Assembly (NCBI GenBank): GCA_027083355.1
Contig: JALWOY010000186.1
Span: 1 to 44,342 of the forward strand
Source of the DNA: Phycisphaerales bacterium
GTDB lineage: Bacteria; Planctomycetota; Phycisphaerae; Phycisphaerales; UBA1924
Reading direction: 5' to 3'
Length of the DNA: 44,342 nt
A program made the translations under genes and the position numbers. Each line of letters begins with the position of its first letter. The first letter of the stretch is position 1. The notes below the pieces were generated by a model. That model worked only from the letters and a program-made list of their open reading frames with translations. It searched no databases and had not been told where the DNA came from. This document shows positions 5,275-11,932 of this stretch, one piece after another.

Positions 5275-5559
5275 ATGGGACGCAGTCTGAAAAAAGGCCC
5301 GTATGTCGACGAGAAGCTCTACCGGAAGGTGGAGAAGATGGAGGCGGAGGGCCGGCGTGATCCGATCAAGACGTGGTCGCGTGCGTGCACGATCGTGCCG
5401 GAGTTCGTGGGGCACACGTTCCAGGTGCACAACGGGCGGTACTTCATCGACGTGTTCGTGACGGAGGACATGGTCGGGCACAAGCTGGGCGAGTTCTCGA
5501 TCACACGGACGTTCCGGGGTCACACGAACAAGAAGGAAGGCATCAAGTCCGGCCGCTGA
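5275..5559 (+). CDS. rpsS: 30S ribosomal protein S19
   Basis: The protein is 94 residues, the normal size. It begins [19 protein letters not shown] and carries the S19 signature [14 protein letters not shown] followed by [11 protein letters not shown]-like residues ([20 protein letters not shown]). S19 forms a complex with S13 in the 30S head, and its gene sits as expected between L2 and L22. It is followed after 27 bases by the extended rplV. Confidence 0.97.
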
Positions 5560-5586
5560 GGCGGGGGCTGATGGGAGGGTCTTGCG

Positions 5587-6144
5587 GTGAGACTGCGAGC
5601 CGATGAATTGAAGCGACGGGCCGAGGAGATGGGCGTGAGCGTCGAGCAGCTCGCCGGCGCTGTCGAGCGAACCGGTCTCGAGGGTGCCGCGGCGGAGAAG
5701 GCGGTCCGGAACTGGATCTCGGGCCGGGATCATCCGCGGTGCAAGAAGACTGATATCGAGCGGTTGGCGGATGCCGTGGGTTGCGAGGCGCGTGAGATCG
5801 CGCGGTTCGTGAGCCGGGTGAATCATCACCGGGGGAGCCCGCGGAAGGCGAAGCTTCTGGTGGACATGATCCGTGGCCGTGGCGCCGACGAGGCGGAGGA
5901 GATGCTCCGTTTCTCGACGAAGCGGGCGGCGGTGAACGTGCGGAAGGCGCTCGAGGCGGCGCGTGCGGACGCGCAGGAGGCGGGTGCGGATTCGTCGGCG
6001 TTGTTTGTCGCGGAGTGCCGCGTGGACGAGGGCCCGCACATCAAGCGATTCCGGCCGAAGGACCGGGGGCGGGCGCACCCGATCCTGAAGCGGACGAGTC
6101 ATATCACGGTGGGTTTGCAGGAGCGCCCCGGCTCGGGGTTCTAA
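5587..6144 (+). CDS. rplV: 50S ribosomal protein L22 with N-terminal HTH domain
   Basis: This is a 185-residue protein where L22 is normally about 110-120. Residues about 80-185 are ordinary L22: SPRKAKLLVDMIRG, TKRAAVNVRKALEAA, VDEGPHIKRFRPKDRGRA and ILKRTSHITV. Residues 1-75 look like a Cro/C1 (XRE-like) helix-turn-helix with four predicted helices: DELKRRAEEMG, SVEQLAGAVERT, AVRNWISGRDHP, and DIERLADAVGC. Translation starts at a GTG with GGGAGG about 8 bases upstream, so the extension appears to be genuinely translated. L22 lines the exit tunnel and is an assembly protein. The added domain could bind rRNA, another ribosomal protein or nucleic acid. Its role is unknown, but the fusion itself is visible in the sequence with no stop or new start between the parts. 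Confidence 0.92.
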   Translation: MRLRADELKRRAEEMGVSVEQLAGAVERTGLEGAAAEKAVRNWISGRDHPRCKKTDIERLADAVGCEAREIARFVSRVNHHRGSPRKAKLLVDMIRGRGADEAEEMLRFSTKRAAVNVRKALEAARADAQEAGADSSALFVAECRVDEGPHIKRFRPKDRGRAHPILKRTSHITVGLQERPGSGF

Positions 6145-6156
6145 CAGAGGTCATCC

Positions 6157-6861
6157 ATGGGACAAAAGACACACCCATTCGGTCTTCGGCTCGGGATCAC
6201 GGAGGCGCACCGCAGCCGGTGGTATGCCCCGAAGGCGTTGTACGGCGAGTTGCTCGTCGAGGATCAGAAGATCCGGGCGTTCCTCGATCACCGTCTGAAC
6301 CGGACGCCGCCGAACGCGGCGGTTTCGGACATCCACATCGAGCGTACACGGGAGGAGCTGAAGGTGATCATCCGCACGGCGAGGCCCGGGCTGGTGATCG
6401 GCCCGAAGGGCGCCGAGGTGGACCGGATGACGGAGGAGTTGCAGTACATGACGGGGCGGAAGGTTTCGATCTCGATCATCGAGATCAAGAACCCCGACAT
6501 GGACGCGCAGCTGGTCGCGGAGAACGTGGCGGAGCAGTTGAAGAAGCGGATGAGTTTTCGTCGGGCCGTGAAGATGCGGACGGAGGCGGTGATGCAGGCG
6601 GGCGCCAAGGGCGTGCGTCTGAAGATCTCGGGTCGTCTCGGCGGCGCGGAGATGAGCCGGGTGCTGGATGTCCGGCAGGGGTCGCTGCCTTTGAGCACGC
6701 TGCAGGCGAACGTTGATTACGGGTTTGCGGAGTCACGGACGACGTACGGTGTGATCGGCGTGAAGTGCTGGATCTACAAGGGTCTGTACACCGAGGGTCA
6801 GGAGGACGACACGTCATCGAACGCCGCGGGCGGTCGGGCCAGGGCGCGTGGTCGCCGCTGA
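6157..6861 (+). CDS. rpsC: 30S ribosomal protein S3
   Basis: The protein is 234 residues. It begins MGQKTHPFGLRLGI, has the type II KH domain with the GPKG loop (LVIGPKGAEVDRM) at about residues 78-90, and shows the C-terminal S3 domain signature GRLGGAEMSR with later GVIGVKCWIYKG. S3 forms part of the mRNA entry channel and helicase of the 30S subunit. It ends in an Arg-rich tail (RARARGRR). It lies 12 bases after rplV. Confidence 0.97.
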   Translation: MGQKTHPFGLRLGITEAHRSRWYAPKALYGELLVEDQKIRAFLDHRLNRTPPNAAVSDIHIERTREELKVIIRTARPGLVIGPKGAEVDRMTEELQYMTGRKVSISIIEIKNPDMDAQLVAENVAEQLKKRMSFRRAVKMRTEAVMQAGAKGVRLKISGRLGGAEMSRVLDVRQGSLPLSTLQANVDYGFAESRTTYGVIGVKCWIYKGLYTEGQEDDTSSNAAGGRARARGRR

Positions 6862-11164: not shown

Positions 11165-11932
11165 ATGGCCGAAGTTCTTGACGAAACAACGAATCTGGAA
11201 TCGACGACCGTCAATATTTATCGCACGAGCGCGACGGTGAAGGGCGGCCGGCGGTTCAGTTTCGGCGCGTTGGTCGTCGCGGGCGATCACCGTGGCAAGG
11301 TGGGCTACGGCTATGCCAAGAGCACGGAAGTCCCCAACGCGATCGAGAAGGCGCAGAAGGAAGCGCGGCAGAACCTGACACGGATCCCGCTTGCGGGCCA
11401 GACGATTCCGCACGAGGTCGAGGGCCGGTACGGCGCCTCGAAGGTACGGCTGCTCCCGGCCAGCCCGGGGACGGGCGTCGTGGCGGGGGCGACGGTCCGT
11501 GCGGTGCTCGAGATGGCCGGTGTCACGGATTGCCTGACGAAGGTCTACGGCTCGAACAACAAGCTGAACGTGGTCAAGGCGACGCTCGCGGGGATGCAGC
11601 AGTTGATGAACCGTGAGAGCATCGCGGAGCTCCGCGGTGTCGAGATCACGACCACGGATATCGAGGAGCGGATCGAGCGGGGCCAGCGATTCATGCCCAA
11701 GACCACCGGCGAGAAGATGCAAGGCCCGGTCAACACGATCGGGCAGGAACGCCGGGGCGGCCGGGGCGGCCGCGGTGGTCGAGGTGGCCGGGGCGGTGGT
11801 CGTGGCGGTCGCGGGGGTGATCGCGGCGTGGCGCCGTCGGCTTCCGCGGAGCAGCCCGCCGCGGGTGCCGGGGAAGCGTCGTCTCAGGATCAGGGGGCCG
11901 TCGAGGGTGGCGGCGAGAGCAAGAGCGAATAA
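11165..11932 (+). CDS. rpsE: 30S ribosomal protein S5 with RGG-box tail
   Basis: The protein is 255 residues against about 165 normally. Residues 14-180 are a normal S5, with the double-stranded RNA-binding type N-terminal domain (GGRRFSFGALVVAGDHRGKV) and the C-terminal half with the PGTGVVAGATVRAVLEMAG signature. Residues 197-219 are almost pure Arg-Gly-Gly repeats, followed by an Ala/Ser/Glu-rich acidic tail. S5 helps form the mRNA entry site and affects decoding accuracy. RGG boxes are RNA-binding and often phase-separating elements, mainly described in eukaryotes. Their role on S5 here is unknown. The gene for L30, which normally follows, is absent. Confidence 0.95.
   Translation: MAEVLDETTNLESTTVNIYRTSATVKGGRRFSFGALVVAGDHRGKVGYGYAKSTEVPNAIEKAQKEARQNLTRIPLAGQTIPHEVEGRYGASKVRLLPASPGTGVVAGATVRAVLEMAGVTDCLTKVYGSNNKLNVVKATLAGMQQLMNRESIAELRGVEITTTDIEERIERGQRFMPKTTGEKMQGPVNTIGQERRGGRGGRGGRGGRGGGRGGRGGDRGVAPSASAEQPAAGAGEASSQDQGAVEGGGESKSE

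Follow-up and report, generated by a model that had tools for sequence, protein, structure and literature searches.

A Cro/C1-type helix-turn-helix domain fused to the N-terminus of ribosomal protein uL22 in two orders of planctomycetes

Introduction

Ribosomal protein uL22 lines the tunnel through which new proteins leave the ribosome; it is universal and, to our knowledge, varies very little in architecture among bacteria. The uL22 gene in a 44,342-nucleotide contig of a Phycisphaerales bacterium (the window; GenBank JALWOY010000186.1) encodes a chain with a long N-terminal extension, which a preliminary description read as a Cro/C1-like helix-turn-helix (HTH) domain. This locus raises the questions of whether the extension is a genuine and conserved part of the protein, how widely the fusion is distributed, and what a domain with the fold of a repressor might do on a ribosomal protein.

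Results

Gene and domain assignment

The fused rplV gene sits between rpsS and rpsC in an ordinary S10 operon (Table 1), the names rpsS/uS19 and rpsC/uS3 being assigned from the sequences. Its frame starts with GTG at 5587 and continues as one uninterrupted chain of 185 residues to the stop codon at 6142–6144, and the earlier observation of a single frame preceded by a good Shine-Dalgarno sequence was confirmed, with GGGAGGG located 7 bases upstream; by eye, AGG-rich sites are found at a similar position ahead of the fused L22 in nearly all relatives. An L22 search of the bacterium's own genome gave one match only, and no paralogue of the HTH domain was found there (next-best domain match, E 0.14). 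Elsewhere in the window, the product of 11165–11932 (+), a uS5-like protein judging from its sequence, carries a C-terminal Arg-Gly-Gly-rich tail of about 65 residues.

Table 1 Features of the fused rplV locus, in window coordinates
Feature	Coordinates	Strand	Remarks
rpsS (uS19)	5275..5559	+	upstream S10-operon neighbour of rplV
Shine-Dalgarno-like GGGAGGG	5573..5579	+	7 bases 5' of the rplV GTG
rplV (fused HTH-uL22)	5587..6144	+	185 aa, GTG start, single copy in its own genome
Cro/C1-type HTH domain, residues 1–71	5587..5799	+	profile and predicted fold
H3, recognition-helix position, residues 33–44	5683..5718	+	first half variable, W43 invariant (partly built in where a motif scan collected the sequences)
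Loop motif GRDHPRCK, residues 46–53, between H3 and H4	5722..5745	+	
uL22 domain, residues 72–185	5800..6141	+	strand 1 (72–81) runs on from H5
rpsC (uS3)	6157..6861	+	downstream S10-operon neighbour of rplV

Residues 78–177 match Pfam Ribosomal_L22 (PF00237) at E 2.3e-31 with a score of 108.5 bits, above the cut-off of 28, and the cut-off of TIGR01044 (L22) was also passed (96.9 against 73.65 bits). The comparison of the extension with HTH profile families that the preliminary description had proposed did find similarity: HTH_31 matched residues 1–80 alone at E 9.5e-5, under the model's cut-off, with the window member scoring 23.2 bits against 27, and the same model was matched at E ≤ 1 by 28 of 39 aligned relatives (best E 3.1e-8), HTH_26 being matched by 23 and HTH_3 by 17 of these 39. 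A homologue from family f13, which belongs to a second order (see below), exceeded the HTH_3 cut-off with 25.6 bits against 23; it was the only one of five second-order HTH segments to do so, the other four and the segment from family f4 being weaker. Many phage repressors among the PHROGs families also matched (best E 7.8e-9) with no single source apparent, the leading four repressor families being matched by 16 to 18 of 18 members. The best PDB-sequence profile match of one alignment (A1), a viral RNA-binding protein at E 0.0056, was judged to be spurious; the same search returned an HTH protein at E 0.1.

Predicted structure

The AlphaFold2 model of the full protein, built with 65 aligned sequences, had a pLDDT of 91.6 and a pTM of 0.83, and the HTH domain modelled alone had a pLDDT of 93.3. 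Five helices were predicted before the L22 fold (H1 5–15, H2 19–26, H3 33–44, H4 54–64 and H5 68–71), and H5 passes into L22 without a linker because L22 strand 1 starts at residue 72. The earlier division into a four-helix HTH at residues 1–75 and a standard L22 at residues 80–185 therefore held for the identity of both domains, but not for the helix count or the boundaries, with the HTH ending at residue 71 and L22 starting immediately after it, its canonical part spanning residues 72–178. At the junction, the end of helix 5 (DIARF.., DISQW..) occupies the place where ordinary L22 has its initiator Met (MAY..). The HTH is thus predicted to be joined rigidly to the uL22 N-terminus, the relative placement of the two domains being judged from pTM only.

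The 50 PDB matches listed for the L22 fold were, judged by alignment and entry, L22 chains, 97–142 residues long, with TM (target) values up to 0.92. For the HTH domain, the leading Foldseek rows were Cro/C1 domains, either free or in enzymes, with probabilities up to 1.00 and no E below 0.07. A second structural comparison gave C.Csp231I (Z 10.0, 69 residues aligned), SinR (9.4) and P22 c2 (8.9), these three and 434 Cro spanning Z 8.4–10, and placed the enzymes HppE and PhpD among the high-ranking neighbours (Z 8.8–8.9). Chains from eukaryotic ribosomes were also present among the neighbours, namely Mbf1 (9f9s_CN) and 7o81_AU of the rabbit 80S ribosome (Z 7.9), which we take to be EDF1. Residues 1–71 are a Cro/C1-type HTH fused to a canonical uL22, an identity on which the profile and fold searches agree with the preliminary description.

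The HTH is mildly basic, its net charge averaging +4.4 (range +1 to +8). In repressors the first half of helix 3 reads bases; here this segment belongs to the variable regions of the domain, and the H2–H3 turn exceeds that of the canonical HTH pattern by 4–7 residues. The DHPRC loop is present in 23 of 34 f1 sequences that were gathered without using the motif. Alignments A4 and A5 (the A5 model comprising 57 of the 65 rows of A4) were gathered by scanning for W[MIL]xG[RSN]DHPRC, so the invariance of residues 43–52 within them is partly built in. The combination of a variable helix 3 start and a retained loop favours a fixed contact over sequence-specific reading of DNA.

Conservation and coding constraint

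An L22 match was obtained in 58 of the 61 genomes around the window. In family f1, which we suspect to be GTDB SM1A02, L22 was found in 34 of 37 genomes, the remaining three (G002, G022 and G034) being each 74–86% complete, and all 34 proteins had the extension and the aligned start codon (GTG in 32, ATG in 2). Five of six genomes of family f4 had the aligned fusion, starting with ATG; in the f4 genome G051 (L040), whose assembly has two contigs, a frameshift within the HTH breaks the fused L22, and since the gene is essential this is probably a sequencing error. Short ordinary L22s are encoded in the 18 genomes of f2, f3, f5 and f6, starting with MAY, MSY or similar, and no remnant of the HTH could be read by eye in the 330 bases before L22 in the unfused f3. 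In an order-wide search of 201 genomes, which for families other than f1 and f4 gives the extent of the match in 69 of 120 genomes, the extension was matched in 75 of 75 f1 and 5 of 6 f4 genomes. A scan of the genome_contigs collection with the f1 domain gave 67 loci, the 64 strong ones all being in-frame fusions with no stop, titled nearly all as Phycisphaerae, Phycisphaerales, Phycisphaeraceae or Planctomycetota; the other three, from other phyla, had a weak HTH match and no L22. Record titles thus place the f1-type fusions in Phycisphaerales. One record titled 'Cyanobacteria bacterium CYA' (L096, RHKP01000006.1) contains a Phycisphaerales-type fused L22, and this title is probably wrong.

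All 39 relatives have a start codon at codon 1, against 4 of 39 at codon 75 and 7 of 39 at codon 78, and the count at any single position from codon 61 to codon 90 does not exceed 8 of 39; the conserved start near residue 75 that would have marked a shorter L22 was thus looked for in these relatives and not seen. Differences at codon positions 1, 2 and 3 were 0.436, 0.379 and 0.536 in the extension and 0.306, 0.248 and 0.481 in the core, position 2 being the least substituted in both. The median dN/dS was 0.54 for the extension and 0.43 for the core over the 1508 of 2080 pairs passing the dS limits, the extension being below 1 in 98% of the 1508, with ratios that are rough since dS values were high. 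Because the extension is aligned, in frame and constrained in every f1 L22 found, chance is excluded. The fusion is a real conserved gene structure, and the earlier judgement that it is no annotation artefact is borne out by the start aligned in 34 of 34 f1 L22s and by the constraint on the extension.

Distribution beyond the home order

Among 61 genomes sampled across the class, the HTH domain was found in 12, five from f1 and seven from families f13, f18 and f20, which we suspect to belong to Sedimentisphaerales; twelve other families of the class, with one genome each, had ordinary L22s. The L22 frames of the seven are 183–193 residues long and have the same N-terminal domain. Their L22 cores (L173–L179) contain a few extra residues, for example AGRRIGTKAW, where relatives have GPxIKRF. 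A search of 246 genomes of the phylum, none of them from f4, gave strong matches only in the f1 and f13/f18/f20 groups, together with eight weak matches (E 3.5e-6 to 0.007) with no L22 within the locus. The fusion is thus conserved in planctomycetes other than the source bacterium, in f1, f4 and the second order, as had been proposed for checking.

On trees built from adjacent ribosomal proteins, genomes with the fusion fall into separate groups, f1 and f4 within the home order and f13, f18 and f20 within the other. The fusion requires three changes on these trees, of which well-supported branches force at least two, and the AU test of a single clade for all fused L22 cores gave p 0.094, so that such a clade is not rejected. 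One fusion origin followed by several losses, or transfer between the orders, is possible.

rRNA, a neighbouring protein and the region upstream of the operon

No 23S indel tracking the fusion was found in 20 full sequences (12 fused, 8 unfused), and the number of 23S columns in which the four fused families share a state lacking in the five unfused ones was 0, against a mean of 1.6 over the 60 splits, counting the observed one, that take two families from the home order and two from the other. That no 23S change follows the fusion counts against a simple rRNA clamp. Individual 23S genes had insertions of their own: in L195 (G043, f4) some 312 additional bases lie at E. coli positions 540–550 and 53 at 130–157, perhaps an intron or intervening sequence, and in L216 (G230, f18) some 289 additional bases lie at positions 1867–1875 of the E. 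coli numbering, both full 23S copies in G230 spanning 3,167–3,170 bases. Protein bL32, which lies close to uL22 on the ribosome, was found in all of 23 genomes with and without the fusion, so no replacement of bL32 was seen.

A k-mer count upstream of the S10 operon in 49 relatives and the window, a simple procedure from which operators that are degenerate or act as RNA could escape, gave no shared operator, the enriched k-mers being only those of the S10 start codons. By eye, a sigma-70-like TTGAC(A/T)...TACGCT recurs before the operon in the window and several relatives.

Discussion

The reading that we consider probable, with moderate confidence, is that the extension is a ribosome-resident accessory HTH contacting rRNA or protein on the outer face of the 50S subunit near the tunnel exit. 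The gene would supply the only uL22 found in this bacterium, with the HTH at its N-terminus, and the fused protein would enter the 50S subunit stoichiometrically. The HTH would then be located on the outer 50S face in the tunnel-exit region, a placement that we infer, in part, from the known site of uL22. Projection from the solvent side, as suggested in the preliminary description, is plausible. There it may serve as a structural or assembly domain touching rRNA via its basic residues and the H3–H4 loop, or it may touch a neighbouring protein, and a role as a sequence-specific DNA-binding regulator would be disfavoured. Passages of PMC5071890 describe uL22 among the proteins around the tunnel exit in E. 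coli, and part of PMC13338714 likewise locates it near the exit.

Contact of the HTH with a further protein could also take the form of a docking platform near the exit for a putative nascent-chain factor or a clade-specific protein, recruited via protein-protein contacts. This is a doubtful alternative, consistent with the position of uL22 bordering the tunnel exit in E. coli (in the relevant passages of PMC5071890), with the occurrence of HTH domains in enzymes such as HppE and PhpD, and with the finding that no rRNA change tracks the fusion. A broader proposal, in which the HTH would be permanent in the 50S subunit, reading nucleic acid or recruiting a factor at the exit, and would have been passed between the two orders or repeatedly lost across them, seems to us unlikely.

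Autoregulation of ribosomal proteins is common, and the HTH fold is the classic repressor fold, as in C.Csp231I, SinR, P22 c2 and 434 Cro, so free uL22 might bind DNA or mRNA with its HTH and repress its own S10 operon, with assembly relieving the repression. Repressors of the Cro/C1 kind usually act as dimers. The start of the recognition helix is variable, however, and the k-mers enriched upstream of S10 in the 49 relatives and the window are those of start codons, which makes this scheme quite improbable; the DNA-binding autoregulator suggested in the preliminary description thus found no backing, given the lack of a shared operator k-mer in that count, the variable recognition-helix start and an H2–H3 turn longer than in the canonical pattern. 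Hardly credible at all is a mature uL22 from which an internal start or cleavage has removed the extension, with the HTH as a by-product: the window does have GTG codons at 75 and 78 from which an L22 of normal length could begin, but start-type codons are rare at these positions in the 39 relatives, compared with their constant presence at codon 1, and constraint on the extension is almost as strong as on the core.

The accessory HTH on uL22 that we favour can be set against known systems. With ordinary uL22 the protein shares the profile cut-offs passed, the canonical fold, the place in the S10 operon and the single copy, and it differs by the 71-residue HTH before strand 1. With the Cro/C1 HTH domains (C.Csp231I, SinR and P22 c2; HTH_31, HTH_26 and HTH_3) it shares the fold and the W..G...P motif of this family, whereas Cro/C1 repressors have neither the longer H2–H3 turn (relative to the canonical pattern), nor the variable recognition-helix start, nor a ribosomal protein as partner domain. 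The structural match to EDF1/Mbf1 offers a Cro/C1 HTH that does contact the ribosome, sitting between 18S rRNA helices 16 and 33 according to the section of PMC7486125 concerned. As described there, EDF1/Mbf1 is a separate small-subunit factor with an MBF1 N-terminal domain, whereas the window HTH is part of a large-subunit protein, and such an N-terminal domain is absent from the window protein, in which helix 1 of the HTH already starts at residue 5 and L22 follows the HTH.

Enlarged L22 proteins are known in other forms. Chloroplast uL22c is likewise enlarged, but extended at both termini (in passages of PMC5071890), and NF008917 (PRK12279, 'L22/unknown domain fusion protein') is an enlarged L22 whose model gave the window protein 52.6 bits, below its cut-off of 526, and aligned to it only at model positions 12–108 of 311, that is, in the L22 part. 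No publication on an HTH-L22 fusion was found in the open-access full-text literature, an absence that is no proof, and a term search for L22 and HTH in the first 300,000 characters of PMC7203096 gave no mention.

That uL22 carries a conserved repressor fold throughout one family, in a related one and in a second order points to a redesign of the 50S surface specific to this clade. The fused and unfused relatives provide a clean natural contrast in which the function of a new ribosomal domain can be studied. The notion that Cro/C1 HTH domains can serve on ribosomes would gain a bacterial example in this fusion. If the HTH were indeed permanent in the 50S subunit, reading nucleic acid or recruiting a factor at the exit, it would constitute a ribosome-borne sensor in planctomycetes, comparable in kind to Mbf1/EDF1.
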